Shown here piece after piece: positions 30,719 through 53,616 of a stretch of 64,000 bases of DNA. This DNA comes from Thioalkalivibrio thiocyanoxidans ARh2 (GTDB lineage: Bacteria > Pseudomonadota > Gammaproteobacteria > Ectothiorhodospirales > Ectothiorhodospiraceae): assembly GCF_000385215.1 (NCBI RefSeq), contig NZ_ARQK01000059.1, positions 1-64,000 of the forward strand. Reading direction: 5' to 3'. The notes below the pieces were generated by a model. The model was given only the letters and a program-made list of their open reading frames with translations, was not told the origin of the DNA and made no database searches. How positions within the stretch are numbered: the first letter of the stretch is position 1; every line of letters begins with the position of its first letter. The position numbers were made by a program, and so were the translations under genes.

Positions 30719-31957
30719 TCAGTGTCCCGTCGTCCCGTGTTGCCGCCGGCGGTGCCTCGCCCGCATCGAGGAGGGCCGGGCGTTGGCCTTGTCCAGCAGG
30801 GTGTCGTAAACCCCAAGGTAGCCCTCCACCATGGCGTCCATGCTGAACTCCGCCTCGGCCCGGGCGCGGGCAGCCTGTCCCGTGCGCTTGCGGGCATCAG
30901 GATTGGCGAGACAGTCGCCGATGGCCCCGGCGAGGGCGTCGGGCGTTCCGGCTGGCACGAGGGTCCCGGTTTGCCCCGGGGCAACCAGGTCCGGATTGCC
31001 GCCGACCTCGGTGGCGATTACGGGCAGCCCGGAGGCCATGGCCTCGAGAATGGTGTTGCAGATGCCTTCGGCGAGTGACGGGAGGACAAAGAGGTCCATG
31101 GCGCGCAGGCAGCCCGCGACGTCCTCGCGGGCGCCGGGCAGCCATGTTTGTGCCGCCACCCCGGCGGCCTTCAGACGCTCCACGGCGTGTTCCCTCAAGG
31201 GCCCGTCACCCACAATCACCAGGCGAAGGCGGTGGAAGGGAACCGGAGCGCGTTCGCGCAGGGCAATGAACGCCTCCACGAGATCCAGCGGTGCCTTCAC
31301 CGCCTGCATCCGCATCACGCTCCCGATCACGATGTCCTCCGGCCCGGCAAAGTCCGAGGGCCAGGGCCCGGTGCGGACGCCTTCGCGCGGGTGGAAGTGC
31401 CGGGTGTCCACCCCGTTACAGATGTGCGTCAACCGCTCGGGGCCGACGCCAACCCTCTGTTGCAGATAGTCCACCTGGTGTTGCGACAAGGCGATATAGC
31501 GGCCGACCAGGGGGCGCACCAGCCGCCGCATGTAACGATGCTTGTCGCGGGAGCCATCCAGATCCGCGACATCCCAGCCATGCTCGCCATGTACCCGGGT
31601 ACGCACGCCGGCGAGGGTGGCGGTAATCTGCGCCTCCAGCGTCGCGAGATTGCGGGTGTGGACGATCGCGGGGCGCAGTTCGCGCAACAGCCGCCACAGG
31701 CGCCGGTGCACGCCGAGATCCTTGCCTTCGCGCTTTTGCAGAGCATGCAGGCCGACATCGTCCCTTTGCAGGCGTTCGCTGAACCGCGTGTAGTCCGTCA
31801 TGCAGATGATCGCGTGCCGGTAGCGCTCGGCGGGCATATGGTTGAGCAGATTGACCAGCCCGTTCTCCATGCCGCCGACGTCCAGGCGGTGGATGACGTG
31901 GGCCACGCAGGGCCGCGGGTCGACGGTCTCCGGTCGATAAGCTGCGCGGGCGTTCAT
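30719..31957 (-). CDS. Sugar transferase, PEP-CTERM/EpsH1 system (stp2 type)
   Basis: 412 residues. CVAHVIHRLDVGGMENGLVN followed by HMPAERYRH matches the second of the two sugar transferases that mark EpsH1/XrtA loci (TIGR03088). GT-B/GT4 elements are VHTRNLATLEAQ, GEHGWDV, THICNGVDTRHF, VIVGDGPLREHAV, and the donor motif SLAEGICNTILEAMASGLPV. It assembles the EPS repeat unit at the cytoplasmic face. Its start overlaps the exosortase stop as ATGA. The last 20 residues are basic and histidine-rich, unlike the core. Confidence 0.92.
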   Translation of the reverse strand: MNARAAYRPETVDPRPCVAHVIHRLDVGGMENGLVNLLNHMPAERYRHAIICMTDYTRFSERLQRDDVGLHALQKREGKDLGVHRRLWRLLRELRPAIVHTRNLATLEAQITATLAGVRTRVHGEHGWDVADLDGSRDKHRYMRRLVRPLVGRYIALSQHQVDYLQQRVGVGPERLTHICNGVDTRHFHPREGVRTGPWPSDFAGPEDIVIGSVMRMQAVKAPLDLVEAFIALRERAPVPFHRLRLVIVGDGPLREHAVERLKAAGVAAQTWLPGAREDVAGCLRAMDLFVLPSLAEGICNTILEAMASGLPVIATEVGGNPDLVAPGQTGTLVPAGTPDALAGAIGDCLANPDARKRTGQAARARAEAEFSMDAMVEGYLGVYDTLLDKANARPSSMRARHRRRQHGTTGH

Positions 31958-33498
31958 CGCTGGTTCACGTCCTGCAGGCGTTCGAGCAGCTGCGGCATGG
32001 CGTCCTCCACATAGGCCCGCATCGCGTCCTCGGCCTCCTGCGGGTCATCGCGGTACTCGGCATAGATCACGATCAGTGCCGCATCGTCGCGCCCGCCCAG
32101 TAGTCGGCTCGTGGCCTCGCGGGCCTTGACCTCGAAGGGCCGGGTGGTGAGCCGCCCATTTGCCCAGTACCACTGCCACGCCACCAGTTGCTGCTGGCGG
32201 CCGCGCAGCAGGACCCGTCGCGGATCTGGATAGCCCGCCACCTCGGCATGGCCGCGGCGGGCCTGACTCCATTCCGCCCGTTCCCGGCCTGCCAGCGTGT
32301 TGTGCCAGCCAAGCATGTTTCCGTGGCGTGCCTGTTCGCGGTAGAAGCCCAGGTGCATGCCGACCTTCGCCTGTCCCTCGTTCACGACCCAGCCGCCGCG
32401 CTCGGCGCGCATGAACTGGTAGCCGGGTTGCCAGGCGGGCCGTTCCCGAGCGGGCACGGCTGTCCAGCCGGAAGGCACGACCGGCCCGGTTCCGAGTCCC
32501 TGCACCGCACCGAGATCCCGGGTATGCGTCCAGTGGGCATATACCGGCCCCAGGGTGACCACCAGTGCGGCGATGACTGCCATATGAGCAAAGCTCGCGG
32601 CCCCCGTCTGCGGGGCCTGCGCCGGGGCGCGGCGCACGGCTTTCGATGCCGCGCCATCCTCGCGCCAGAAGGCACCGATCCAGAACATCAGGAAGATCAC
32701 GACCCCAAAGAAGACCCACCCGTAGATCAGGTGATCAACACCCACGGCATACTCCATGCCGCTCAGATGACCCACCATCACGATCATGTAGGCGCGCAGG
32801 CCATTGGCGATGATCGGCACGATGATCGCGACACCGACAAAGGCCAGACGTCGCCAGAGGCTGCGATACATCAGATAGGCGTACAGCGTCCCCAGGGCGA
32901 CGGACGCAATCAGATAGCGCACGCCGCTGCAGGCCTCGACCACGGACCAGCGTCCGGTGGGCAGCTCGAAGTACAAGCCCTCGCGATAGATCGGAACCCC
33001 GGACAGCTGTACCGCCGCGACGGTGAAATTCGCGGTGAAGTCCATCAACGGCGGTACGAGGAACTCGCCAAACGGGACGGCAAACAGCAGGTAGGCCAGT
33101 GGAAGCTGCAGCACGCGCACCACCGCGGTACCCATCACCAGCCACACCAGGAAGGGGATCATCAGGGTCGCGGCGAACTGGCGCACCGAGGTGACATCCA
33201 CCAGCTCCCCCATGACCCAGGCAAGCCCCAGCAGCAGGATGGGAGCCAACGCCAGGGGGGTGGGTCGAGGCGATACGGCCGCCAGCTCGGCACGCTTGAG
33301 ATAGACCAGAAACAGGACGATCGGCACGATCAGGAACCCGTGCGCGAAGGTGTCCGAACGTGCCCAGGTATCTACCATCGAGAGGAAGGTGGGCGCGAAC
33401 ACGATCAGCACAATGGCCAACAGAGCGGCCAGTGCCAGCACGGGTGCCCACCACCGCTGCACCCGCGGCTGGGACATCACGGTGGCCGGCGTGTTCAT
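31954..33498 (-). CDS. xrtA: Exosortase A (XrtA) fused to EpsI domain
   Basis: 514 residues from the ATG at 33498, which overlaps the upstream glycosyltransferase stop; the frame extension to 33651 is spurious. The first 280 residues are a multi-span membrane protein with the exosortase triad: C190 in VVEACSGVRYL, R235 in ANGLRAYM, and H256 in GVDHLIYGW. The remaining part, from about residue 300, has one membrane anchor and a periplasmic EpsI-like domain (WTAVPARERPAWQPGY, EYRDDPQEAE). Exosortase is thought to cleave at the PEP motif of PEP-CTERM proteins and transfer them to a cell-envelope acceptor. EpsI is often encoded separately or fused, as here. The substrate in this window is the protein at 45524-46357. 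Confidence 0.95.
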   Translation of the reverse strand: MNTPATVMSQPRVQRWWAPVLALAALLAIVLIVFAPTFLSMVDTWARSDTFAHGFLIVPIVLFLVYLKRAELAAVSPRPTPLALAPILLLGLAWVMGELVDVTSVRQFAATLMIPFLVWLVMGTAVVRVLQLPLAYLLFAVPFGEFLVPPLMDFTANFTVAAVQLSGVPIYREGLYFELPTGRWSVVEACSGVRYLIASVALGTLYAYLMYRSLWRRLAFVGVAIIVPIIANGLRAYMIVMVGHLSGMEYAVGVDHLIYGWVFFGVVIFLMFWIGAFWREDGAASKAVRRAPAQAPQTGAASFAHMAVIAALVVTLGPVYAHWTHTRDLGAVQGLGTGPVVPSGWTAVPARERPAWQPGYQFMRAERGGWVVNEGQAKVGMHLGFYREQARHGNMLGWHNTLAGRERAEWSQARRGHAEVAGYPDPRRVLLRGRQQQLVAWQWYWANGRLTTRPFEVKAREATSRLLGGRDDAALIVIYAEYRDDPQEAEDAMRAYVEDAMPQLLERLQDVNQR

Positions 33499-34736
33499 GC
33501 ATCCCCCCGGGATGCGATCGCCTCGCCCTCGGGCGCCAGTCCGCTCTCGAGATAGTCGTGCAGGCGGGCGAGATTGCGGCCCCAGTCGTAGTCCGTAGTG
33601 ATGCGCCGGCGGGCGCTGGCCGCCATCTCGGGTTCGGGTTGTTCCAGGCACCGAAGGACCGCGCGGGCGAACACCTCGGGGTCGGTCTCGGCCTCGATCA
33701 CCTCGTCATTGCGCGCTGCGGTGATCCCCTCGAGCGCCTGCGGGGAGGCCACGACGGGGCGCGCGAGCGCCATGGCCTCGAGCACCTTGTTCTGGACTCC
33801 GCGCGCGATCCGCAGGGGCGCCACCGATACCGCGGCCGACCCGACCCAGGGGCGCATGTCCTCCACTGGCCCGACGACCTCGACGCCGGGCTGGCGCTCC
33901 AGTTCACGGACATCCGGCGAAGGTCGGCAACCGACAATATAGAAGCGCACATCCGGACATTCGCGTCGGATCCGGGGCAGGACGGACTCCGCGAACCAGA
34001 CCACCGCCTCCACGTTCGGCCAGTAGTCCATGGCGCCGCTGAACACGATTGGCCGGACGTGATCCGGGTAAGGGCCTTTCTTCGGGAGCTTTTGCGGATC
34101 GAAGTACGCCGCATCCACGCCGTTATTCAGTGCGTGCACCCGATCGGCGCTTTCCGGCGCCAGGGCCCGAAACGCGGTGGCCTCGTCCGGTGACACGAAC
34201 AGGCTGGCCTCGCTGCGCGCCGCGACCTGCCGTTCATAGCGCAACAGCTGGCGTCCTTCGCGGCGGTAGATCGCGCTCATCGGCCAGGCCTTGCTGGCGG
34301 CGTATTGCGTCCACTTGTCGGAGTCGACATCGACGAAATCCACCACTCGGGGCAGATTGGCCCGGTGTGGGAGGTATTGCGCCATCGCCGAGGAGAAGAC
34401 CAGCGCGCGCGTGATGTCCTGCTGTTCCAGTACCTGATCCACCCAGCGTTGCAGCGCCGCATCGCGGTACCAGGGCAGAGTCAGCGGTTCCTGTGTCAGC
34501 AGGCCGCGCAGGGCCCGCCATTTTGCACGTCCCGGCGAGAGCGGGCGCACGCAGACGCTCTCGCAGCAGCGTTCCAGCTCTTCTACATAGACCGCGTCGT
34601 CCGGGTCATCGATAAAGGTGCCCAGGTGAACCCGGTAACGCTGTGCCAGATAGCGCAGGATATGGTGCGACCGAATCTTGTCGCCCTTGTTGGGCGGCCA
34701 CGGGATTCGATGGGTCAGATAAAGAATGGCGTCCAT
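33495..34736 (-). CDS. Sugar transferase, PEP-CTERM/EpsH1 system (stp1 type)
   Basis: 413 residues. The opening ILYLTHRIPWPPNKGDKIR is the hallmark of the first EpsH1-associated sugar transferase (TIGR03087). It is a GT-B fold with VDFVDVDSDKWTQYA, FVSPDEATAFR, NNGVDAAYFDP, IVFSGAMDYWPNVEAV, and the donor motif RIARGVQNKVLEAMALARPV. It adds a sugar to the lipid-linked intermediate. The gene directly precedes xrtA with an ATGA overlap, which keeps the sugar transferase pair around the exosortase as in other XrtA loci. 54 bases separate it from the FemAB gene upstream. Confidence 0.92.
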   Translation of the reverse strand: MDAILYLTHRIPWPPNKGDKIRSHHILRYLAQRYRVHLGTFIDDPDDAVYVEELERCCESVCVRPLSPGRAKWRALRGLLTQEPLTLPWYRDAALQRWVDQVLEQQDITRALVFSSAMAQYLPHRANLPRVVDFVDVDSDKWTQYAASKAWPMSAIYRREGRQLLRYERQVAARSEASLFVSPDEATAFRALAPESADRVHALNNGVDAAYFDPQKLPKKGPYPDHVRPIVFSGAMDYWPNVEAVVWFAESVLPRIRRECPDVRFYIVGCRPSPDVRELERQPGVEVVGPVEDMRPWVGSAAVSVAPLRIARGVQNKVLEAMALARPVVASPQALEGITAARNDEVIEAETDPEVFARAVLRCLEQPEPEMAASARRRITTDYDWGRNLARLHDYLESGLAPEGEAIASRGDA

Positions 34737-41952: not shown

Positions 41953-42304
41953 GCCTTGCGGTCCCCCTGTTGCACCCATTGACGCTCAATTGGCACCTGC
42001 TGGGTTTTCAAACGGAGTAATAATTGACCGGGAAAAGGGATCCCCGGAAAGCCATCTGATGGCTTGCCTGGACCCCTCCCGGGAGATGCCTAGGGCTATT
42101 GAAGATGGTTTGTTTCGCCGTGTCTACCTATGTCGAGAATGTTTACACCTCGAAAGATTTCGTTACTTATTTTTCTAATAAATTTTCGCAGCCTTATAAC
42201 GGATCAGGGGTTTACGTTAACTGGTACACAGTTTGCTGGGGTTTGTTCGATTAGGCTCGAAAACCGGCCGGGGGGCGGATCGGCTGGTTGGGAGGGATTC
42301 TCAA
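41953..42304. other. Divergent intergenic region, EPS operon / PilZ operon
   Basis: 352 bases. It carries the sigma-54-type promoter for the PilZ operon (42222-42237). On the minus strand it must hold the promoter of the long EPS operon. A GG-N10-GC pattern near 42074-42087 is a poor match, so a sigma-70-type promoter in the AT-rich stretch around 42150-42190 is more likely but could not be fixed. Confidence 0.5.
42222..42237 (+). promoter_or_regulatory. Candidate sigma-54 (-24/-12) promoter of PilZ operon
   Basis: TGGTACACAGTTTGCT has GG and GC separated by exactly 10 bases, the TGG of the -24 box and TTTGCT at -12. Expected transcription start is near 42248, giving a leader of about 57 bases before the ATG at 42305. 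The PrsR activator encoded at 50189 is the natural candidate regulator. Confidence 0.68.
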
Positions 42305-42901
42305 ATGCACGACGATCTGGGCCAGAAGAGCCTCGCGCAAAACCTGGCGGAGTTCTGGCATCCCGCCATGCTCCGGCGGAGCTGGAGCGAACGACTCGAC
42401 TTGATGAGCGACATCTACCGTCAGCTGCACCGGTTTAGTGCGAGTGACCAGGAATACGAGAGGTGGGCCGGTCAGCTGGTTGCGGCTGTCATTGAACGAC
42501 TGGGGGAACCCCCGATCACGGACCCTCACCAGGCGGACCTCTATGCCTGTTCGCCGGACCCGCGGCACTGGTCTGCCGCCTTTGCCTGGCGATACGGCGG
42601 GCAGAAGTCCTCTGGCAGGCCCGACCAGCGTTGCTGGCCGCGGTACGCAGTCAACCTGTTGACCGAGATCGGCATACGGGAGGAGTGGCGCAAGTGCCGC
42701 CTGATCGACCTGTCGAGAGGTGGCGCGCGGATTGCGCTGATCGGGCAGCACCCGTATCTGCCCCCCGAGACCACCTTGCAACTGGTCCTTCCGACCGCCG
42801 GGACCTTCGATTCCGTTGTGGTATCCGATCGCCGGGTGGGCCTGGGTCTTCGTTTTCTGAGGCGCAATCCCTCGGGGCAACGCATCAACACAACGGCCTG
42901 A
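42305..42901 (+). CDS. PilZ-domain protein (c-di-GMP receptor candidate)
   Basis: 198 residues from the ATG at 42305, with GGAGGG eight bases upstream. The first 100 residues are a helical region of unknown function. The C-terminal part has both signatures of a c-di-GMP-binding PilZ domain: RxxxR as RCWPR (109-113) and DxSxxG as DLSRGG (135-140), followed by strands ending VVVSDRRVGLGLRF. It lies first in a sigma-54-driven operon with two acyltransferases and a ThiF-like enzyme. It may tie that pathway, or EPS synthesis opposite, to c-di-GMP levels. All residues needed for ligand binding appear to be present. Confidence 0.85.
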   Translation: MHDDLGQKSLAQNLAEFWHPAMLRRSWSERLDLMSDIYRQLHRFSASDQEYERWAGQLVAAVIERLGEPPITDPHQADLYACSPDPRHWSAAFAWRYGGQKSSGRPDQRCWPRYAVNLLTEIGIREEWRKCRLIDLSRGGARIALIGQHPYLPPETTLQLVLPTAGTFDSVVVSDRRVGLGLRFLRRNPSGQRINTTA

Positions 42902-42905
42902 AACG

Positions 42906-43757
42906 GTGCCCCGGCCGAACCCCTTTCTGAAACGTGCAATGGAGGACGAACTCTTGTCTACGCATGCTGACGTTGAGCCTGGATACCCAGGACCGGATCA
43001 CTGTGCCCCGGGCGCGGCTCTCCCGTCCTATCAGGTTTACCTCGCCACGGGCGCGCGGGCGCGTCACATTCACTATCGCATGCGCTATGCGGTGTACTGC
43101 CTGGAAACCGGCTTCGAAGCAGCCGAGCATTACCCGGAAGGCTTTGAACGCGATCTCTATGACGAGCACGCCGCTCATTTTCTGGTGCGTCTGGGAGGGC
43201 TTTACGCCGGAGGGCGCTGGGTGGGCGCCATGCGTCTGATCCGGCCGGATCAGACACCCCTCCCCACGATCGCCACCGGGCAGTTGTTTCCGGGTGCCTT
43301 TGCCAGGGCGCGGGACGAGCCGCCGCGAGTGCTGGAGGTCTCCCGTCTGATTGCCCGCGGCGCCCCGGAGCGTGGCTCGCCGCGCCTGCTGTATCACCTT
43401 TGTCAGGCTGCCCAGGCCTACGCCCAGAATCATGGCTATGAGTTCCTGCTGTTCATGATTCGGCCGGCGCTGGCGCGCCTGCTTCAGCGCCACCACATCC
43501 CCATCGAGTTGTGTGGGGAGGCCTGCGAACATCGGGGGTTGAGGCTGCCGTTTCGGGCGCCCACCGCCGAATCGGGCGCGGCCCTGTCCGCCTGGCGCCG
43601 TCGCCTGGGGCTGGGCGAGACGCCCGTTCGTGCCCCCTACGTGGAGTTTGCCGGGAATCCGCCCTTTCCTTACCGCACGAAACTCGGCTACAAGCCTTGC
43701 TGGCGCAGGCGTTCGTATCAGGCCCCGGGGGCTTTGGAAGTGCCCTGTGCAGGATGA
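42906..43757 (+). CDS. Exosortase system-associated acyltransferase, copy 1
   Basis: 283 residues from the GTG at 42906. Other starts are the ATG at 42939 and the TTG at 42954, and the latter has GGAGG eight bases upstream and may be the real one. The core resembles autoinducer-synthase/GNAT-like proteins of the exosort_acyl family (TIGR03694): MRYAVYCLETGFEA, FLVRLGGLYAGGRWVGAMRL, VLEVSRLIARGAP, and YEFLLFMIRPALARLL. The family is known by association with exosortases; its substrate is undefined. This copy is more divergent than the next one and overlaps it by 11 bases. The pair probably arose by duplication and may form a heterodimer. Confidence 0.82.
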   Translation: MPRPNPFLKRAMEDELLSTHADVEPGYPGPDHCAPGAALPSYQVYLATGARARHIHYRMRYAVYCLETGFEAAEHYPEGFERDLYDEHAAHFLVRLGGLYAGGRWVGAMRLIRPDQTPLPTIATGQLFPGAFARARDEPPRVLEVSRLIARGAPERGSPRLLYHLCQAAQAYAQNHGYEFLLFMIRPALARLLQRHHIPIELCGEACEHRGLRLPFRAPTAESGAALSAWRRRLGLGETPVRAPYVEFAGNPPFPYRTKLGYKPCWRRRSYQAPGALEVPCAG

Positions 43758-44523
43758 CCCGCTCATCTCCGCCTTCTGCCGCTACTTTGACCTGATCAGG
43801 CCAAATGAAGAGCAGATGGAGGCCGTTTATCGGCTACGCTATGAGGTCTACTGCCGCGAGTTCAAGTATGAATCCGGGGACAGCTGCCTTGGCGAGCGCG
43901 AGGTCGACGAGTATGACGCGCAGGCCACTCACTGCCTGCTGCAGCATGTGGTTAGCGGCACCAGTGCGGGCTGTGTACGAGTGGTGCATGTCGATGGCCG
44001 CCAGAAGATCCACGAACTACCGATGGAACGCCACTGCGAGAACTGTTTCTACGAGACGGACTATCGTCCGGACCGAATCGAGCGAGACCAGATTTGCGAG
44101 GTTTCCCGGCTGGCGGTCAATGGGCTGTTCCGTCGGCGCCTGGGCGAGTCGGTAACCCCCTTCGGGGACCTCCACCTGCTGAATGTACCGCTGGAGCAGG
44201 CGCGCACCTTCCCCTTGCTGGCGTTGAGCCTGTTCATGAGCGCGGTGGCGATGATGGAGATCCAGGGCCGGTCGCATGCCTTTGCGATGATGGAACCGTC
44301 GCTGGCGCGCATCCTGCGTCGCCATGGCCTGAAGGTGAAGCAGATCGGCACGCTGCAGAATTATCATGGCCGGCGCGCGCCGTTTCATATCAGTCTGCTT
44401 ACGGCCCTGGCCGGGATTCACCGTTCACCATCGCTGAGCCAGTTGTATGCGCACTCCTATAGCAATCTCTCCGACTCTCACCCCTCCGACTCGCTCTGGG
44501 ACGCTGTTGCCCGCGCGGCCTGA
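43747..44523 (+). CDS. Exosortase system-associated acyltransferase, copy 2
   Basis: 258 residues from the GTG at 43747, inside the end of copy 1, with GGAAG upstream; the frame is open further upstream but that overlap would be long. It is the more canonical family member: LRYEVYCREFKYES, DEYDAQATHCLLQH, GCVRVVHVD, ICEVSRLAVN, and FAMMEPSLARILRRHGLKVKQIG. The motifs match the fold of acyl-homoserine-lactone synthases, so it may use acyl-ACP or acyl-CoA. The stop overlaps the ThiF-like start by one base (TGATG). The two acyltransferases and the E1-like enzyme look like one pathway. Confidence 0.85.
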   Translation: MQDDPLISAFCRYFDLIRPNEEQMEAVYRLRYEVYCREFKYESGDSCLGEREVDEYDAQATHCLLQHVVSGTSAGCVRVVHVDGRQKIHELPMERHCENCFYETDYRPDRIERDQICEVSRLAVNGLFRRRLGESVTPFGDLHLLNVPLEQARTFPLLALSLFMSAVAMMEIQGRSHAFAMMEPSLARILRRHGLKVKQIGTLQNYHGRRAPFHISLLTALAGIHRSPSLSQLYAHSYSNLSDSHPSDSLWDAVARAA

Positions 44524-45398
44524 TGCCTGAGTTCGACTATCACGCGGCGTTCCGGCGCACCCACGGCTGGATGACCTGGCCGGAGATGGAACGCCTGCGC
44601 GGCGCGCGCGTGGCGATCGCCGGTCTTGGCGGCGTTGGTGGGAGCCACCTGCTGACGCTCGCCCGTCTCGGGGTCGGGCGCTTTCATATCGCGGATTTCG
44701 ATTGCTTCGAGCTGCACAACATGAACCGCCAGGCAGGGGCGGGCATGTCCCGTCTGGGCAGGCCCAAGGTCGAGGTCCTGCGCGAGATGGCCCTGGACAT
44801 CAATCCGGAACTGGAGATCACCACATTCCCGGAGGGCGTGTATCAGCAGAATCTCGATGTCTTTCTGCAGGGCGTGGATCTCTATGTCGACGGGCTCGAC
44901 TTCTTCGTGTTTCAGGTGCGCCGCGAGGTCTTTGCCGCGTGTGCGGAGCGCGGGATTCCGGCGATTACCGTGGCCCCGCTCGGTATGGGGGCGGCCTTGC
45001 TCAATTTCCGCCCGGGCGGGCTGTCGTTCGATGGCTACTTCGACCTGCGGGACGGGCTTTCCGACGAGGAACTCGCGCTGCGGTTCATGATGGGCCTGGC
45101 CCCCTCGATGATGCAGATGGGATACCTCGCAGACCCCGAGGCCGTCGACCTGGCGGCCCAGCATGGTCCGTCCACGGTGATGGCCTGCGAGCTGTGTGCG
45201 GGGGTCATGGGCACCGAGGCCCTGAAGATCCTGCTGGGGCGCGGGCGTGTCGTCTGGGCCCCGCACGGAGTCCACTTCGATGCCTACCGCCAGCGTCTCG
45301 TCCGCACCTGGCGCCCCGGCGGCAATCGCAACCCCCTGCAACGCCTGCTCCTGGCGATCGGCCGCCGCCGGATGGCGCGCCTTCGGGCGCAGGTCTAG
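44523..45398 (+). CDS. ThiF/MoeB-family E1-like adenylyltransferase
   Basis: 291 residues. The nucleotide-binding motif is VAIAGLGGVGGSHLLTLARL (about residues 30-50), followed by HIADFDCFELHNMNRQ, which holds the conserved Asp and Arg of E1-like enzymes, and PAITVAPLGMG. CELCAGVMGTEALKILLG is the helix that follows the crossover region. There are no zinc-binding CxxC pairs and no rhodanese domain. Members of this family adenylate a C-terminal carboxylate of a small protein or peptide. No ubiquitin-like partner is encoded in the window. Placement directly after the two exosortase acyltransferases suggests that it activates a carboxylate in the same pathway. Confidence 0.85.
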   Translation: MPEFDYHAAFRRTHGWMTWPEMERLRGARVAIAGLGGVGGSHLLTLARLGVGRFHIADFDCFELHNMNRQAGAGMSRLGRPKVEVLREMALDINPELEITTFPEGVYQQNLDVFLQGVDLYVDGLDFFVFQVRREVFAACAERGIPAITVAPLGMGAALLNFRPGGLSFDGYFDLRDGLSDEELALRFMMGLAPSMMQMGYLADPEAVDLAAQHGPSTVMACELCAGVMGTEALKILLGRGRVVWAPHGVHFDAYRQRLVRTWRPGGNRNPLQRLLLAIGRRRMARLRAQV

Positions 45399-45441: not shown

Positions 45442-45470
45442 AAAAAAACCCCTCGTCCGAAGACGAGGGG
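45442..45470 (-). terminator. Rho-independent terminator of PEP-CTERM gene
   Basis: A 9-bp perfect stem, CCCCTCGTC with GACGAGGGG, around a CGAA loop; on the minus strand it is followed by a run of seven T. It lies 54 bases after the PEP-CTERM gene stop. In the other direction no T-run follows, though it may still slow reading from the ThiF-like gene. Confidence 0.9.
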
Positions 45471-45523
45471 CCGGGACAGGTCTTCCGCCCAGGGGGGAGC
45501 AGAAGGCCCAACCACAAGGGCTG

Positions 45524-46357
45524 CTAGGCGTCGAGACCGGTCTCGCGGCGGCGGCGCATGGCGATAAAGCCGAGCATCACCAGTCCAGTTCCCAGCAGAA
45601 GCAGCATCGCGGGTTCGGGTACTTCTGCTTCGGACCACCGAGAGTCGGCCGAGCCGACGACCTCAAAGGTGGTGCGCTCGTCGACTTCCTCGAATCCCTC
45701 GATGAAGTCGAACTGACCCGTCACGCGGACGTTCATGTAGAACGGATCCGGATCGGTAAAGAACTGCCGGCCTTCGTCCGTGAGCATCCATTCGTTGAAC
45801 AGCAGCGCAAAGCTGCCGATGTCGTCCGCACCCGGTTCGAAGCGACCATCGCCGCGGTCGAACATGTCGGACCAGCCGACGAGGATGTCGTCGTCCGTGC
45901 CGCCCAGGGCGACACCATCGGCCGCATCGCCCGTGTTGAACCCGAAGGTGGTATCCAGATTCGGGTCCAGATAGAGCGCGATCGAGCCACTTGTGCCGGT
46001 GAACTGGCCCGCGTCCGCATCGTAGGTCCCTGAGGACTCGAATACCGCGTAGAGCCCGTAGAACAGATCGGCATCGTCCCCGCTGGAGCCCAGTCTGTTG
46101 CTTACCGACGTGCCTCCGAGGAAGTACTGACCCACGTTCCAGTAGGCCGACGCGTCGAACGAGCCGTCGGCATCGAGGGTCAGCAGCTCTTCGTACCCGC
46201 CGGTAATACGGTCGACCTGCTGCTCGCCTACCGCAATCGTAGACAGCTCGAGCTGCGAGTCATCGATAGTAAAGACGCCGGCGTGTGCGGTGCCCGCAAG
46301 CCCGAGACTGGCAACTGCCAGTACCGCACCCAGCGCTGTTTGCTTGAACCTTTCCAT
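45524..46357 (-). CDS. PEP-CTERM sorting-signal protein, PepA-like (floc-associated type)
   Basis: 277 residues from the ATG at 46357, eight bases after GGAGG; an in-frame GTG at 46372 overlaps that site and is rejected. A signal peptide is cleaved near AGTAHA (residue 26). The C-terminus has the whole sorting signal: VPEP (246-249), a hydrophobic helix, and the basic cluster MRRRR near the end. The mature domain is acidic, with FTIDDSQLEL, VDRITGGYEELLTLDADGSF and NVGQYF, and resembles the flocculation-associated PEP-CTERM protein PepA as I remember it. It should be processed by XrtA and end up on the cell surface or in the EPS matrix. A sigma-54-type promoter lies about 93 bases upstream of the start. 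Confidence 0.9.
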   Translation of the reverse strand: MERFKQTALGAVLAVASLGLAGTAHAGVFTIDDSQLELSTIAVGEQQVDRITGGYEELLTLDADGSFDASAYWNVGQYFLGGTSVSNRLGSSGDDADLFYGLYAVFESSGTYDADAGQFTGTSGSIALYLDPNLDTTFGFNTGDAADGVALGGTDDDILVGWSDMFDRGDGRFEPGADDIGSFALLFNEWMLTDEGRQFFTDPDPFYMNVRVTGQFDFIEGFEEVDERTTFEVVGSADSRWSEAEVPEPAMLLLLGTGLVMLGFIAMRRRRETGLDA

Positions 46358-46449
46358 GTTGAAATCCTCCACCAGTTAGCATCAATTTGATTTGAATAAC
46401 GGTTGCTTCCACTTCACTTGCTGGTCGTCCTTTCCTGCACGAGAAGTAA

Positions 46450-46465: not shown

Positions 46466-46582
46466 TGGGCGGCAAGTGTCTGTAGATAGGGCGGTTTTTG
46501 TTTTTTTGATTGCCCCGCGCCGGGAGCGATGTAAAAAAATCGGACGCCGGGAAAAACGGCCCCTGATTTGAGGAGACGTCTC

Positions 46583-47375: not shown

Positions 47376-50183
47376 TCAGAGGGATTCGTGGAGCGACTGG
47401 GCCCGCTCGCGTTCCGGAAAGTCCTCGTGTGCCTCCAGCAGTTCCGTCAGCAGCGCGCGCGCCTGTTCGGTATCGCCACTGGCCTGGTAGGCCTGCGCCA
47501 GATGAAACCCGATATCGGGGGCCTGCGGGCTCATCCGGTATGCACGCTGCAAAGTCTCCAGGGCGCTTTCGGTATCGCCTCCCTCCAGCAGGACCACGCC
47601 CAGGGTGTCGAGAATCGCAGGCTGGTCCGGCGCCAGATCGACGGCCCGCTCGGCGTACTCGCGGGCGCGGGGATTGTCCGCCTCGCGTGCCAGCCACGCC
47701 GCGTTGTTCAGGGCAACGACATCGTTGGGCCGTTCTTCCAGCAGGGTTTCGTAGGTCTCCAGTGCCTCGGTCTCCTGCCCCGCGTTGATCTGCGCTGAAC
47801 CGAGTACGTGCCGTGTGGCGCTATCGTCCGGGTGGTCCTGCAACCAGGCCTGCAACGTCCGGATCGCCGCCTCGGTCTGCCCGGCACGTTGTTGCACCTG
47901 GTATTTCTCCACCAGCCAGTCGCGTCGGGACTCGCGCTCGAGCGCGCGCTCGTAGCCATCGATCGCCTGTTCGAGCTGGCCGTCTTCGGCGTCGAACCAG
48001 GCCTGCTGTGCGATCACCTGCGTGGCCTCCGGGGCCCGCTCCGCGAGGGGCTCAAAGACCTGTCGCGCCTCGTCCACCTCGCCCGCCAGGCTCAGGTGCC
48101 GGGTCAGCACCATGCGCGCACTCATATGGCCGGAGTCGATCGACAGTGTCTCGCGCAGGGCCGCGACCGCCTGCTCGGTTTCACCCAGGGCGGCGAGATT
48201 GCGTGCCTGGCGGAAACGCAGCTCGGCGGCCTCGGGTCGCAGTACCGCCAGGTGCGCAAGGGTCTGCGCTGCGCCCTCGAAGTCCTGCTGGTGCTCCTGC
48301 AGGTCGACCAGCAGACCGAGCACCCGTGTGTCGTTGGGGTGATGCTCGCGCGCGTCCTCCAGAGTGGACCGGGCAGCAGTGTGATCGTCCTGCTGCGTCT
48401 GGGCGCGCGCCAGCATCAGGTGGGGCTCGATCCGGTCCGGGTGTTCATCGATCGCACCCTGCAGCCAGCGCGTGCCGGCCTCCATCTCGCCCTGCTGAAA
48501 GTGCAGCGTGGCCAGCCGAATCGCCGAGGTGGGGTGGCCGGGGCTGCGTTCCTGCAGGTCCTCGAGGATCTCGCGGGCTGTATCCAGGTTGCCCTGGCGC
48601 ACTTCGAGCGAACTCAGGTTCAGTGCCAGGGTGCTGTTGTCCGGGTGGAGCGACAGGCCCTCCTGGTAGATCAGGCGTGCCTCGTGGGTCTCGCCCAGGC
48701 CCAGGAGGGCTGCACCCATCAGGTTGTAACCCTGCGGGTTTTCCGGATCCTTCTCGCGCAGGCGCTGGGTGGCCTCCAGGGCCTCGTCGTACTGGCCGTC
48801 ACGGATATGCGCCAGCGCAAGCGAGTAGTCGGCCAGACGCACGTCGGTGCTTTCGACAGCAACCTGTTGCAGCAGGGCCATCCCCTGTTCGTGATCCCCG
48901 TGCCGTACCAGAGCGATTCCCAGCATTTCCTGCAGTTCCGGCCGATCCGCGCGGTTGGCCAGGGACTCGCGCAGGACCTCGATGCCGCTTTCGGTATCGC
49001 CCTCGCCGATATAGAGCGCGGCGAGCTGATCCCCCAGGGCCTCGACCAGGTCGGGTCGTTCGCTCAGCGCGTCGGCCAGGATTCGCCGCGCCTCCTGTGG
49101 CCGGCCCTGTCCGATGCGCAACTGAGCCAGCAGCCGATAGCTCATGGCGCTCTGCGGGCCCAGCGCGCGGTGACGCTCGAGCAGACGCTCGGCCCGAGAC
49201 CAGTTGCCTTCCTCCAGGTGGATGGCCGCCAGATAGGGCATCGCAAGGCGATAGTTGCGTGACACCGCCAGTGCTTCCTCCAGGTGTGGTTGCGCCTGCA
49301 GGGGTTCGCCGCTCTCGAACTTGACCAGGCCCAGCAGGAAGTGGCCACCGGGGTGATCCGGGGCGCCCTGCTGCAGAAACTCGCCATCCTCCCGGGCCTC
49401 GTCGAACTGTCCCAGCTCGACGTGCATCAACCCGCGCTTCAGGCGCTCGGCGACCGCGTCCGGGCGCAGTTCGATGGCGCGGCCAAAGGCTTCCAGCGCG
49501 CCCTCGGGGTCACCCTGTATCCGTACCAGATCCCCCTTGAGAGACCAGGCGGGGGAGAACTCGGGGTCGCTTTCCAGGGCCCTGTCGGTCATCTTCATCG
49601 CCTGCTCGGCGTCCCCGTCGGACATGGCCTCGTAGGCGCGCGCCAGGTGGATCTCTGCGAGGTCGTCATGCGTTTCCGCTGCGGCCGCCAGATATTCCGA
49701 GCCGGCGTCGCTTTCACCCGCCTGGAATGCCGCCAGCGCCCGGTAAGCCCGCAGGCGTGCCGCATCCTCGCCCTCCAGAGCATCGGCCTCGGGGATCTCG
49801 GCGATTGCGCCGCTACCGCCCAGGATGAACAGGAGGCGCGCCAGCGGCAGGGCATATGCGTTCGGGTCCGCCCCCATTTCCAGGGCCCGTTGCAGGTGGC
49901 GCACGGCCGGCTCCGGCTGCTGATCGCGCAGATAGGCGAGGCCCAAGCGGCCGCGTACCTCGGGGTCCGCGTTTTGCTGCAGCGCGTTGCGGTATTCGAT
50001 GGTGGCCGCGGCGTATTCGCCCGCCTCCATGTGGCGCTCGGCACGTTCCCGGTACTCCGCCTCGGTGGGGGTGCCCAGGGCGTCGCAGCCGACAAGGGCC
50101 AGAGCCATCGCCAGCGGGGCGAGGCGTGGAAGGACCCGGCGGGACGTGGCCACCGAATGGTTTACGGGACGGGGAATTTTCAT
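47376..50183 (-). CDS. prsT: TPR-repeat lipoprotein PrsT, XrtA/PEP-CTERM system
   Basis: 935 residues. A lipoprotein signal is visible: a basic start, a hydrophobic segment, and lipobox LVGC with the lipidated cysteine C33, so it is anchored in the membrane and periplasmic. The rest is about 25 tandem TPR-type helix pairs (for example YRNALQQNADPEVRGRLGLA, YNLMGAALLGLGETHEARLI). It matches PEP_TPR_lipo (TIGR02917). PrsT is conserved beside PrsK and PrsR; it probably scaffolds EPS or protein export in the periplasm. The gene follows prsR with a five-base gap and closes the minus-strand operon. Confidence 0.94.
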   Translation of the reverse strand: MKIPRPVNHSVATSRRVLPRLAPLAMALALVGCDALGTPTEAEYRERAERHMEAGEYAAATIEYRNALQQNADPEVRGRLGLAYLRDQQPEPAVRHLQRALEMGADPNAYALPLARLLFILGGSGAIAEIPEADALEGEDAARLRAYRALAAFQAGESDAGSEYLAAAAETHDDLAEIHLARAYEAMSDGDAEQAMKMTDRALESDPEFSPAWSLKGDLVRIQGDPEGALEAFGRAIELRPDAVAERLKRGLMHVELGQFDEAREDGEFLQQGAPDHPGGHFLLGLVKFESGEPLQAQPHLEEALAVSRNYRLAMPYLAAIHLEEGNWSRAERLLERHRALGPQSAMSYRLLAQLRIGQGRPQEARRILADALSERPDLVEALGDQLAALYIGEGDTESGIEVLRESLANRADRPELQEMLGIALVRHGDHEQGMALLQQVAVESTDVRLADYSLALAHIRDGQYDEALEATQRLREKDPENPQGYNLMGAALLGLGETHEARLIYQEGLSLHPDNSTLALNLSSLEVRQGNLDTAREILEDLQERSPGHPTSAIRLATLHFQQGEMEAGTRWLQGAIDEHPDRIEPHLMLARAQTQQDDHTAARSTLEDAREHHPNDTRVLGLLVDLQEHQQDFEGAAQTLAHLAVLRPEAAELRFRQARNLAALGETEQAVAALRETLSIDSGHMSARMVLTRHLSLAGEVDEARQVFEPLAERAPEATQVIAQQAWFDAEDGQLEQAIDGYERALERESRRDWLVEKYQVQQRAGQTEAAIRTLQAWLQDHPDDSATRHVLGSAQINAGQETEALETYETLLEERPNDVVALNNAAWLAREADNPRAREYAERAVDLAPDQPAILDTLGVVLLEGGDTESALETLQRAYRMSPQAPDIGFHLAQAYQASGDTEQARALLTELLEAHEDFPERERAQSLHESL

Positions 50184-50188
50184 GGGGA

Positions 50189-51526
50189 TTACCTCAGGCC
50201 GAATTTGTCGAGCAGGCTGTAGAGCGTTGGTCGCGTGATGCCGAGTTGATCCGCGGCCTGTGCAATGTTGTTTCTACTGCGGGCCAGGGCTTTCAGGATG
50301 GCCTCGTGTTCCGCGCTGTCCCGGATGTCGCGTAGCCGCACCGCCGGGGTCTCGCCATGCGGGGGTTCCAGGCCCAGGTCCTTAGCGGTTATCAGCTGGC
50401 CGTCGGCCATGATCACGGCGCGACGGATCAGGTTTTCCATCTCGCGCACGTTGCCCGGCCAGTCGTAACTCTCGATCGCGTTGGTGGCATCCAGGGTGAA
50501 ACCGCGGCGCGGCCGCCGCTGATCGTGGGCAAAGCGGTCGAGCAGATAGTGGGCCAGCAGGCTCGCATCCCCCTTGCGCTCGCGCAGGGGAGGGATGGAT
50601 ACCGAGATCTCGCTGATGCGGTAATACAGGTCTTCGCGAAAATCGCCCTGTTGAATCAGCGCCTTCAGGTCCTGGTTCGTGGCCCCGATGATGCGCACAT
50701 TGACCGGGATCTCGGCGCGGCCACCGAGGCGCTCGATCTTTCGTTCCTGCAGAAAGCGCAGCAGCTTGGCCTGCAGGCTGTGCGGCAAGTCGCCAATCTC
50801 GTCCAGGAACAGGGTGCCGTTGTTGGCGTGCTCGATCTTGCCGATGGTCTGGCGCGATGCCCCGGTAAAGGCGCCTTTTTCGTATCCGAACAGCTCGCTT
50901 TCGAGCAGGTTCTCGGGGATCGCCGCGCAGTTGATCGCCACGAAACGCTCGTTTGCCCGGTCGCTCAGATCGTGCACCGCGCGGGCCAGGATCTCCTTCC
51001 CCGTCCCGCTCTCTCCCAGCAGCAGCACCGTGGCGTCCGAGGGTGCGACTCGCTCCACGACCCGGCATACGTCCAGCATGCCCGGATCTCCGGTGACGAC
51101 CCCGTTCAGGGCGGCCCCCGGCCGGCGTGCCAGCTGACGGTTCTCGGCTTCGAGCGCGTACAGGTGAGCGGCGCGATCCACGATCGTCCGCAGGAGATCG
51201 GATTCGACCGGCTTGATGTAGTAGTCACAGGCGCCCATGGCCACGGCCTTGAGCGCGTTCTCGCGATCGTCGTTTCCGGTGACCACGATCACCTTGGTCT
51301 GCGGGTCCTGCGCCAGGATCTCCTGCAGTAGCGCCAGACCCTCGGAGGCATTGGCCGGGTCCGGTGGCAAGCCCAGGTCCAGCGTCACCAGCTCCGGCTG
51401 ATGGCGCCGCACCTTGGTCATGGCGCTTCCACGGTCTTCCGCCAGCAGGGTCTCGTACCCCTCGAAGCACCAGCTCAGCTGGTTTCGCAGACCCTGGTCG
51501 TCTTCAATGATGAGAAGCTTCAACAT
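50189..51526 (-). CDS. prsR: PrsR, sigma-54-dependent response regulator of PEP-CTERM system
   Basis: 445 residues from the ATG at 51526, with GAGGG five bases upstream; 51553 is a weaker start. The receiver domain has phospho-acceptor D50 in VTLDLGLPP and K in YYIKPV. The AAA+ domain has Walker A GESGTGKE (171-178), the sigma-54 contact loop GAFTGA (218-223), and [11 protein letters not shown] as Walker B. A Fis-type helix-turn-helix ends the protein ([20 protein letters not shown]). It matches PEP_resp_reg (TIGR02915). It is the expected activator of the sigma-54-type promoters at 16495, 42222 and 46450. It follows prsK by 23 bases. Confidence 0.95.
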
Positions 51527-51549
51527 AAAACCCTCGCAATCACCAGCGG

Positions 51550-53616
51550 TCACGATGGCTCGGCCATGGCCGGCACCATCTGCAAGGGGAGCTTCAGGGT
51601 GAAAACCGTTCCCACTCCGGCCTCGCTGTCAACGGTAATGCGTCCGCCCATGCGTGAAATGCGGTCCCGTGCCTCATACAAACCAATCCCCATCCCTGCG
51701 TTTCCCTTGGTGGTTTGAAAGGGTTTGAAAAGACGATTCTTTACGAAAGCCGGTTCCATGCCGCTCCCTGTGTCTTCGATTTTTACAATAGCCCAACCCC
51801 CTTCGGTGTAAAGGTTGAGATTGATTGACCCATCATCCGGAGTAGCTTCTTGAGCATTTCTTACAAGATTGAGTAGTACATTTTTAAGTCCTTCCTGATC
51901 GCCGATTACCGCCGCCGGCTCGCGCAGGTCGAGTCGCGGCAGGGGGGCGCGATGGCGGCTGGCCTCGGAGACCTCGGCCAGCAGCCGGTCGAGCGGGATG
52001 ATGCGGCTCGGCGTCTCGGGTGTGGTCTGCGCATGGCGCAGCTGAGCCAGGGTCCGTTCGAGCCGGTCGCGAGCGTTACCCACCGTGCGCAGGGCATCGC
52101 GGACAAAGTCCGGATTCGACAGATGACGCTCCGCGTTGGAACACACCAGGGACAGCTGGGCGGACACATTCTTCAGGTCATGCACCAGAAAGGCCGCGAG
52201 CCGGTGAAAGGCCTCGAACTGACGGGCTTCGAGCAGCGCCTCGTCGGTTTGCACCAGCGCGACATAGACGGCGAGCTGGCGCCCGGCGGTCTTCAGGAGA
52301 TCGCGCTCCTCCCAGTCGATCTTGCGCGGTGCGCGGGGCTGGGCGAGTACCACAAACCCTTGCAGGCGATCGCCCTTGAGCAGCGGCACCACCACCCACA
52401 GGCGCGTGTTCTGTGCCAGCCATTCGGGCAGCTGCAGGCCTTGATACAGCTCGGGGTCCCGGCGGTATTCGTTGAGGTCGATCACCCAGCCGGTGCGCGC
52501 GACGAAATCCACCAGCGCCCCGTCCGGTTCCTCCGGGGGATAACTCGGGTCGCCCAGGTTGAGGACGCCTTCCAGGGCATAGGTGCCGTTGCGGTCGCGT
52601 ACCCACAGCAGTCCCCCGGGGCTGTCCACCAGCTCGCCGATCGCCTGGATGGCCCGCTGGCGGAACGGGATCTCGTCATCCTCGGACGAGAGCGTGCCCG
52701 TGAATCTGAGCCATTCCTGCCGGTAATCGAACGAATAGCGAAAGAAGTGCTTGGCCAGGAACACGCGCAGGCGGGAGCGCAGGCTGCCCGAGGCCACAAT
52801 AACGCCCAGCAAAAGGGCGGCGCCGAACAGGAAGACCACCTGCAGGAAGGCACCCAGATCGCCCCCGACATGCCGCAGGTAGTAGCCGGCGGCCCCGATG
52901 GCGAGCAGATAGAGCCCGGCCCCGATCAGCGCCGCGGTATGGAACAGTAGATGGCGCGAGACCACCGGGGCCTCGCGAGCCTGCAGTGGCCGGCGCGCCA
53001 GCGAGATCGCGATCAGCGGCACGACCAGGGCGTTCACCAGACCCCGTGCCTGCCAGACCGGGCTGTTGATCGCCCCGAACAGGACGAGATCGGCAAACAG
53101 GAACAGGTCGAAGGCGAACATCGCCCCGAGGCCCAGGCTCAGGAACTTGATCTCCCAGCGGCGCTGCAAGGGGGTGTTGCGGAAGACCTGCTCGACCAGC
53201 ACCAGGCCCAGCACCACCATCCCCAGCATCGCCATGCCCACCCAGGCGCCATAGGCCAGGGGGGCAGGCAGGGCCAGGGCTGCAAACACCCCAAGCATCA
53301 CTGCAGCCGTGGCGATCATCGCCGCGCGCAATGGCCATGGCGGTCGGGAATCGGAGTCGCCGCGACGCGCGAGGAGGGCGAACAGGACCGCGAACCAGCC
53401 GGCATTGCGCAGCACCTCGAAGGCCCCTCCGGAGACCGGGGCCTCGCCGATCGCGTGAGCCACGAGCGCCATGTGCAGAGCCCACAGGACCGAGAGCAGC
53501 GCGGCACCCGCGACCCACAGGCTCCCCGGGCGCTGGCGCCAGGTCCAGAAGGCCAGCACCGCAAGTACGAGGAAGGCCAGGCCGGCCAGGAGATAACTGG
53601 GCGCCGCGAGATTCAT
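51550..53616 (-). CDS. prsK: PrsK, membrane histidine kinase of PEP-CTERM system
   Basis: 688 residues. The first 280 contain about eight membrane segments as sensor, followed by a GAF-like domain (about 310-460). The histidine kinase core has the phospho-acceptor H479 in FLVHDLKN, the N box NLVRNAQEA, and G boxes EDTGSGM and KGNAGMGIGLYEARDR. It matches the PrsK family (TIGR02916). It would phosphorylate PrsR in reply to an unknown envelope or metabolic signal. The H-box form HDLKN is typical of NtrB-like kinases that pair with sigma-54 activators. It starts three bases after the sugar transferase stop. Confidence 0.95.
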   Translation of the reverse strand: MNLAAPSYLLAGLAFLVLAVLAFWTWRQRPGSLWVAGAALLSVLWALHMALVAHAIGEAPVSGGAFEVLRNAGWFAVLFALLARRGDSDSRPPWPLRAAMIATAAVMLGVFAALALPAPLAYGAWVGMAMLGMVVLGLVLVEQVFRNTPLQRRWEIKFLSLGLGAMFAFDLFLFADLVLFGAINSPVWQARGLVNALVVPLIAISLARRPLQAREAPVVSRHLLFHTAALIGAGLYLLAIGAAGYYLRHVGGDLGAFLQVVFLFGAALLLGVIVASGSLRSRLRVFLAKHFFRYSFDYRQEWLRFTGTLSSEDDEIPFRQRAIQAIGELVDSPGGLLWVRDRNGTYALEGVLNLGDPSYPPEEPDGALVDFVARTGWVIDLNEYRRDPELYQGLQLPEWLAQNTRLWVVVPLLKGDRLQGFVVLAQPRAPRKIDWEERDLLKTAGRQLAVYVALVQTDEALLEARQFEAFHRLAAFLVHDLKNVSAQLSLVCSNAERHLSNPDFVRDALRTVGNARDRLERTLAQLRHAQTTPETPSRIIPLDRLLAEVSEASRHRAPLPRLDLREPAAVIGDQEGLKNVLLNLVRNAQEATPDDGSINLNLYTEGGWAIVKIEDTGSGMEPAFVKNRLFKPFQTTKGNAGMGIGLYEARDRISRMGGRITVDSEAGVGTVFTLKLPLQMVPAMAEPS

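Follow-up and report, generated by a model that had tools for sequence, protein, structure and literature searches.

The operon

The window, i.e. the whole stretch of DNA analysed here, comprises 64,000 nucleotides of contig C59 from the 2.77 Mb genome of the sulfur-oxidizing bacterium Thioalkalivibrio thiocyanoxidans ARh2 (labelled G000 in the comparisons below). It contains four genes, all in the same direction, which were confirmed to make up a single compact operon downstream of a -24/-12 promoter site: they encode a PilZ-domain protein, two homologous acyltransferases (here called AT1 and AT2) and a ThiF/E1-like enzyme. The linkage of this type of ThiF gene with such acyltransferases and with exosortase A (XrtA) in other genomes is far above chance. 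We put the probability at about 0.5 that the four genes constitute an acyl-amino-acid module which is controlled by RpoN and belongs to the XrtA/PEP-CTERM surface-polymer regulon, and in which the ThiF-like enzyme would cyclize an N-acyl amino acid to a saturated oxazolone.

The promoter site, TGGTACACAGTTTGCT (42222..42237, plus strand), agrees with 12/12 specified positions of the sigma-54-type pattern TGGYRYRN4TTGCW and is its sole strict match on both strands of the 64 kb; transcription would be expected to start near 42248. The first gene (42305..42901, plus strand; PF07238, 35.9 bits, 1e-8) encodes a putative receptor of cyclic di-GMP (c-di-GMP); its ATG at 42305 is the likely start, the family scan having used the longer TTG frame 42233-42901. 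After a gap of 4 bases follows AT1 (42906..43757, plus strand), which on the basis of profiles, a structural model and a tree is a divergent FeeM-type acyltransferase and putative N-acyl amino acid synthase. The start of AT2 (43747..44523, plus strand), probably a GTG at 43747 within the frame 43696-44523 that was used for the family scans, overlaps the end of AT1. The ATG of the ThiF/E1-like gene (44523..45398, plus strand) and the stop codon of AT2 have one base in common, and the product of this last gene is an ATP-dependent enzyme by its NF006077 and PF00899 matches, putatively an N-acyl amino acid cyclase or activating enzyme.

All four genes are under purifying selection. The closest ThiF relative among the loci returned by a contig scan is that of Thioalkalivibrio sp. 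ALJ3 (91% identity), and the ratios of nonsynonymous to synonymous substitution (dN/dS) against this strain are 0.12 for PilZ, 0.17 for AT1, 0.11 for AT2 and 0.08 for ThiF; against two more distant relatives they range from 0.10 to 0.39, at dS values above 1. Nine Thioalkalivibrio loci were compared (the window, L063, which is the same as L106, L102-L105, L107, L108 and L128), and a PilZ-like gene is present in all nine. No such gene was found in the two Ectothiorhodospira loci that belong to the same ThiF clade as the window; the Halorhodospira contig of this clade covers no more than about 0.35 kb of the sequence preceding AT1.

The -24/-12 pattern alone proves little, because its strict count in the whole genome (11) shows no excess over that of a reversed control (11). 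The site can nevertheless be regarded as above chance, since its placement at the operon head is conserved in 9/9 Thioalkalivibrio loci, seven times as a strict match and twice with 11/12 positions. In the stretches of the eight relatives (some 160 kb, both strands) there are six strict matches, every one of them at the operon-head position. Over 107 loci the motif occurs 13 times in 203 kb of upstream sequence (regions of 1.1 kb, counted strand-specifically) versus 28 times in 3531 kb elsewhere, and 7 of these 13 copies are the Thioalkalivibrio sites. A preliminary description of the window, made from its sequence, had proposed a sigma-54-driven operon, and in this respect it is borne out.

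The two acyltransferases and the E1-like enzyme

AT2 is a member of the exosortase-associated acyltransferase family TIGR03694 by the curated cut-off (192.5 bits; cut-off 111.95) and occurs in an XrtA genome. AT1 differs in that it scores just under this cut-off (105 bits) and falls into another, older clade of paralogues; its orthologue in genome G223 reaches 123.5 bits. Both proteins exceed the FeeM cut-off (PF21926, 27 bits), AT1 with 37.5 and AT2 with 39.9 bits, AT1 is over the cut-off of PF13444, and the Pfam FeeM and Acetyltransf_5 domains are above cut-off in both. Against the LuxI family PF00765 (gathering cut-off 24 bits), AT2 scores 30.0 bits and AT1, under the threshold, 18.6 bits; both score better with FeeM. 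The proposal that two homologous acyltransferases of the type of acyl-homoserine lactone (AHL) synthases and FeeM lie side by side holds; the preliminary description had named the lack of a shared fold in profile searches as an outcome that would speak against it, and this outcome did not occur.

An AlphaFold model of AT1 (mean predicted local distance difference test score, pLDDT, 79.7; confident between residues 40 and 250, approximately) resembles FeeM (PDB 2g0b; Z 16.7, root-mean-square deviation 3.4 over 174 residues), although the Z-score is higher for the coenzyme A (CoA)-dependent AHL synthases BjaI and RpaI (18.9). A search of the PDB with the AT2 sequence gave nothing significant, so the fold assigned to AT2 rests on the profiles and on the AT1 model. 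A tree built from 95 acyltransferases of the loci compared (FastTree, midpoint root) places AT1 and AT2 in two old clades. Comparison of 26 rows for AT1 with 67 for AT2, two rows from L092 being excluded, showed an identical core, consisting of R60/R48, D83/D71, D86/D74, R110/R95, E144/E135 and R147/R138 in AT1/AT2, which we take to correspond to residues of EsaI. Around this core, E111, R130, R148 and E200 are conserved in AT2 and not so in AT1, and AT1 for its part has conserved H56, F92 and W105. Since the core is common and the surroundings differ, the two enzymes probably differ in the amino acid or the acyl chain that they use; both look active, with different substrates. The idea that AT1 is a dead enzyme was rejected, as it retains the core residues common to both clades.

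The ThiF-like protein matches PF00899 (138.8 bits) and, well over the cut-off of 266 bits, the family NF006077/PRK08223 (485.3 bits), which carries the name 'hypothetical protein'. Its model (pLDDT 91.6) has a full E1-like fold, with AclA (9egb; Z 27.7) as the best match and ThiF and MoeB following at Z 26.2, and profile relatives in the PDB are ThiF, TcdA, MoeB, PaaA and MccB. The E1-like enzyme of the preliminary description is therefore well founded. In an alignment of 60 rows the residues G34, G36, G37, V38, G39, N68, R69, Q70, K82 and D126 are invariant, and D126 aligns with an Asp of Escherichia coli ThiF. Conserved ATP-site residues together with linkage to an acyltransferase, a combination expected of the cyclase in an acyl-oxazolone cluster, are thus both found here.

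With TcdA, MccB, PaaA and AclA, E1-like enzymes that act on small substrates, the protein shares the ThiF-like fold and the nucleotide site (the first three by profile, AclA by fold), but its partners and substrates are others. The product of TcdA, the t6A dehydratase, is an oxazolone; MccB and PaaA make other bonds. The protein is far below the cut-off of the curated TcdA model and also far below the equivalog cut-offs of the ThiF/MoeB sulfur-carrier adenylyltransferase models, TIGR02356 (85 versus 275.25 bits) and TIGR02355 (63.5 versus 376.55 bits). A defence-type E1 was considered as well and dismissed, since PADLOC showed at most partial E1-E2 domain matches, the best with 48 bits.

Association with acyltransferases and exosortase A

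The distribution of the genes was analysed in 321 genomes of the class, spread over many families (Fisher tests without correction for kinship), in 30 genomes of the genus, several of those without matches being incomplete, and in 75 distinct named ThiF loci (80 minus 5 duplicates) next to the 32 ThiF loci of the class sample. In these loci a gene was counted as a partner if no more than 5 kb separated it from ThiF, and some contigs end early. In the class sample the ThiF family was present in 32 genomes, TIGR03694 in 47 (39 over cut-off) and XrtA over cut-off in 60 (94 at E 1e-10). A TIGR03694 protein accompanied ThiF in 24/32 ThiF genomes (9e-17) and XrtA did so in 30/32 (3e-23); the two genomes lacking XrtA over cut-off are G098, without a match, and G249, with one of 147.7 bits. 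Within the 60 XrtA genomes, ThiF was found in 22 of the 25 that have an acyltransferase over cut-off versus 8 of the 35 that do not (5e-7). Adjacency by chance, which the preliminary description had named as another outcome that would speak against its proposal, does not explain these figures.

At this distance, 18/32 class loci and 39/75 named loci have an acyltransferase gene. In the genus, all 13 of the 30 genomes that possess ThiF have adjacent AT1 and AT2 genes and XrtA in the genome. In total, XrtA over cut-off occurs in 15/30 genomes and an acyltransferase match in 17/30. The genomes that do not fit are G334 and G335 (acyltransferase without XrtA or ThiF), G342 (acyltransferases and XrtA without ThiF) and G346 (XrtA alone), with G353 (weak acyltransferase match) and G350 (XrtA match under cut-off) as weak cases.

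The flavin-dependent oxidase

Most relatives of the ThiF-like gene are linked to a gene for a flavin-dependent oxidase (FDO). Within the same 5 kb, an FDO accompanies ThiF in 62/75 named and 20/32 class loci, and is in one frame with it in 22/75 and 11/32. The whole trio of acyltransferase, ThiF and FDO occurs in 28/75 named and 12/32 class loci, ThiF with an FDO and no acyltransferase in 34/75 and 8/32, ThiF with an acyltransferase and no FDO in 11/75 and 6/32, and neither partner in 2/75 and 6/32. The statement that most relatives carry the full trio had to be rejected, because the named loci more often show an FDO with no acyltransferase in the vicinity.

Loci of Thiobacillus, Accumulibacter, Sulfuriferula and similar organisms (L116, L121, L122, L131, L149, L168, L171 and others) combine ThiF with FDO and have no acyltransferase in their flanks, not all of which are long; they may rely on another acyltransferase or on one encoded farther away. 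ThiF genes 62-65% identical to that of the window were also seen in a Kitasatospora (L153) and in metagenome-assembled genomes of Nitrospirae (L161) and Planctomycetota (L164), on short contigs of 4-12 kb, two of them with ThiF in one frame with FDO; their presence in such distant phyla would reflect horizontal transfer or contamination.

ThiF-linked FDOs from relatives of the locus align with the FDO portion of the Rv1355c/TrzS model at 165.7 and 142.2 bits, in both cases below the whole-protein cut-off of 476. With a profile that was itself built from ThiF-linked FDOs, a match above 300 bits was obtained in 20/321 genomes, all of them ThiF genomes, and the 289 genomes that lack ThiF all stayed at 125 bits or less. 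A divergent class of FDO adjoins or lies near ThiF in 14 loci, commonly with PSADNSQPW at the flavin-site motif and with 55-130 bits to the canonical profile versus 380-514 bits to its own; examples are L110:3871-4911 (minus strand), L077:7308-8507 (minus strand) and L080:4841-5968 (plus strand), in addition to 11 further loci. A supposed ThiF-FDO fusion in G223, a relative from the same genus, was rejected, since the 686-residue frame is an open frame upstream of ThiF with ThiF at its end.

Profile searches found no FDO-A desaturase at the window locus, fused or adjacent, or elsewhere in its genome. This genome does encode one Acg-family protein on contig C49 (NF047509, 251 bits; cut-off 199) and one ordinary nitroreductase. 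The Acg-family protein clusters with FDO-like proteins outside ThiF loci, mostly from genomes without ThiF, and for this reason was rejected as a relocated cognate FDO; possibly it is a separate lipid or stress enzyme. Its gene (C49:11324-12268) lies near one for a CorA-type transporter (read without a family scan), and a like gene exists in G223. A broader profile that included the divergent FDOs was applied to the 23 ThiF genomes without a nearby FDO: 16 had no match, two had matches of about 27 bits, and five (G000, G223, G247, G327 and G330) scored 88-100 bits; the FDO of Halorhodospira reached 388 bits. The Acg model scan covered only the window's genome of these five, and the proteins of G223 and G247 cluster with the one on C49. 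Six of the nine Thioalkalivibrio genomes gave no FDO match whatsoever with the broader profile.

In the ThiF tree the gene of the window belongs to a clade of 12 (Thioalkalivibrio, Ectothiorhodospira and Halorhodospira; support 100), in which AT1 is present in 12/12 and FDO absent in 11/12, Halorhodospira alone having a divergent FDO nearby; outside the clade an FDO is present in 81/93 scored rows. At least 10 changes in the absence of FDO fall on this tree, and the oxidase therefore seems to have been often lost or gained. AT1 is found in 17/23 rows without FDO versus 8/82 with it (Fisher 4e-9; 105 of 107 rows, two being dropped as cut-off contigs). A test that takes kinship into account yielded six independent pairs, of which about three were in favour and the rest showed no difference (occasionally one against), with a median p of 0.25, on a quick tree with 45/104 weakly supported inner branches. 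A general replacement of FDO by AT1 is thus not established after allowing for kinship.

Genomic setting

A hairpin with a T tract (45447..45472), terminator-like on the minus strand and of weak energy (z -1.26), separates the operon from a convergent gene for a flocculation-associated PEP-CTERM protein of the PepA family (45524..46372, minus strand; NF033554, 180.4 bits, cut-off 80). Beyond it lie, all on the minus strand, genes for the XrtA/PEP-CTERM tetratricopeptide repeat protein PrsT (47376..50183; TIGR02917, 591.7 bits), the sigma-54-dependent PEP-CTERM response regulator PrsR (50189..51553; TIGR02915, 696.6 bits) and the histidine kinase PrsK (51550..53616; TIGR02916, 717.6 bits). Exosortase A itself is encoded at 31954..33651 (minus strand; TIGR03109, 360.7 bits, cut-off 208). 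PrsT, PrsR, PrsK, XrtA and other XrtA-locus proteins of the window are each above their own cut-off. A UbiE/Methyltransf_11-type methyltransferase gene (46568-47293, plus strand) was observed between pepA and prsT.

PrsR is the likely activator of the -24/-12 site. In Aquincola, the PEP-CTERM gene pepA is reported to depend on RpoN (PMC9850573), and for T. thiocyanoxidans a sigma-54 activator near PEP-CTERM genes is reported as lower on thiocyanate than on thiosulfate, with a log fold change of -1.6 (PMC5744179). The RpoN site, PrsK/PrsR, XrtA, PepA and the exopolysaccharide (EPS) genes together place the operon in an aggregation or polymer programme.

Relation to known pathways

The core of the operon resembles the acyl-oxazolone systems TyzACB and TrzAS of Mycobacterium (PMC10404671; PMC12856293) and OxzAB of Pseudoalteromonas rubra, in which an acyltransferase of the AHL-synthase/FeeM fold is likewise combined with a ThiF-type enzyme. 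As described in these two papers, an aromatic amino acid is first N-acylated by the acyltransferase; with ATP, the ThiF homologue (such as TyzB or TrzS) then cyclizes the N-acyl amino acid, and an FDO desaturates the ring; in TrzS the saturated ring is made first and the oxidase acts later (PMC12856293). Unlike Oxz, Tyz and Trz, the operon of the window has two divergent acyltransferases, a PilZ gene and a sigma-54 site, it lies in an XrtA locus, and no FDO-A was found in its genome.

The term exosortase is absent from PMC10404671 and PMC12856293, and among the matches listed in the literature search, outside the scope of which lay subscription-only work, none links exosortase to an oxazolone pathway or to a ThiF partner. 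In PMC8776678 oxazolone and exosortase both appear, in unrelated places (methanobactin and the title of a reference), and the one paper found to contain both exosortase and ThiF is a study of integration host factor (IHF). The parts are thus known and the chemistry of the trio has been published; as far as the literature found shows, the near-exclusive tie of this ThiF family to exosortase A in the sampled genomes and the oxidase-less form with two acyltransferases are new. The suggestion of the preliminary description that no pathway is described for this set must accordingly be narrowed: the core pair resembles OxzAB, TyzACB and TrzAS in parts and layout, but the exosortase A tie and the oxidase-less two-acyltransferase form were not found described.

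Possible function

In the reading that we favour, PrsK/PrsR and RpoN would turn the operon on along with the PEP-CTERM genes, as the promoter site and the neighbouring genes suggest. AT1 and AT2 would each transfer a fatty acyl group from acyl carrier protein or CoA onto the amino group of an amino acid, after which the ThiF-like enzyme would adenylate the resulting N-acyl amino acid at its carboxylate and the amide oxygen would displace AMP, closing a 5(4H)-oxazolone ring as in TyzB and TrzS. The end product would be a saturated, electrophilic oxazolone (or else an activated N-acyl amino acid), or a conjugate formed after a nucleophile opens the ring, and not the unsaturated acyl-oxazolone of Oxz, Tyz and Trz, because no FDO-A was found in the genome. 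Since the saturated ring precedes oxidation in TrzS, a system without oxidase that stops at this ring is chemically plausible. The substrates, the ring closure, the product and a role in the polymer or aggregation programme are predictions of this comparison. A Methylomonas strain mutated in an XrtA-type N-acyl amino acid synthase reportedly lacked its distinct polysaccharide band, which complementation restored (PMC11072679).

Several observations weigh against this reading. In 8/32 ThiF genomes there is no TIGR03694 match at E 1e-10, and the 34/75 named loci with ThiF and FDO have no acyltransferase within 5 kb; the ThiF enzyme thus need not depend on these acyltransferases. The ThiF-like protein of the window scores 61 bits against the Rv1355c family, far below the cut-off, and the three pathways described in PMC10404671 and PMC12856293 each have an FDO and a single acyltransferase. 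Natural oxazolones are ring-opened by water and alcohols, as reported in PMC12856293. An oxazolone that is so easily hydrolysed may be a mere intermediate.

In a less likely alternative, the ThiF-like enzyme would activate N-acyl amino acids in order to hand them on, be it to a second amino acid, to what the other acyltransferase makes, to a sugar amine of the EPS or to a surface protein, with the two acyltransferases supplying donor and acceptor and a free oxazolone not being the goal. The presence of two acyltransferases with intact cores and different conserved surroundings, the FDO-A that was not found in the genome, the EPS-locus setting and the closeness of the E1-like folds of MccB and PaaA fit this idea, but none of the four genes yielded a carrier, acceptor-binding or condensing domain in the family scans, and the nearest pathway relatives cyclize.

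More doubtful is an ordinary pathway to the usual unsaturated acyl-oxazolone, with desaturation in trans by another flavoprotein. The Acg-type nitroreductase on C49 or the ordinary nitroreductase could be called upon, and Halorhodospira, in the same ThiF clade, does have a close divergent FDO. However, the affinities of the C49 protein lie with FDO-like proteins of mostly non-ThiF genomes, two-thirds of the Thioalkalivibrio genomes (6/9) have no FDO match at all, and the FDO-B genes of Mycobacterium tuberculosis are not close to its oxazolone genes, as reported in PMC10404671.

Saturated oxazolones, or azlactones, are reactive acylating agents. We would regard as a long shot the thought that XrtA/PEP-CTERM systems include an acyl-oxazolone branch of their own and that in Thioalkalivibrio this branch, whose product was once a terminal metabolite, has turned into an acyl-transfer device, in which saturated azlactones made by two acyltransferases and the E1-like enzyme lipidate an amine or hydroxyl of EPS or of a sorted protein, tuned by c-di-GMP via PilZ. 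The preliminary description had likewise imagined that the product is attached to PEP-CTERM proteins or EPS, and for this no evidence was found.

A decaying remnant of an oxazolone cluster after loss of the desaturase would agree with the absence of FDO in 11/12 members of the ThiF clade and its presence in 81/93 other rows, but is very improbable in view of the purifying selection on all four genes, the retention of AT1, AT2 and XrtA in 13/13 ThiF genomes of the genus, the conserved promoter site and the retained core residues. A sulfur-carrier or ubiquitin-like E1 that stands beside the acyltransferases by chance has the ThiF/MoeB fold in its favour and is hardly credible, given the scores far under the curated ThiF, MoeB and TcdA cut-offs and the co-occurrence and adjacency with acyltransferases.

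The function of exosortase-linked N-acyl amino acids was called still unclear in a paper of 2016 (PMC4897644). That this ThiF family is, in the sample, almost confined to exosortase A genomes (30/32) provides a chemical hypothesis, according to which these N-acyl amino acids would be converted to oxazolones or activated acyl donors. The widespread exosortase surface systems may thus also make a small reactive lipid, and the oxidase-less form of Thioalkalivibrio offers a clean test case for this, because expression of three enzymes would suffice.

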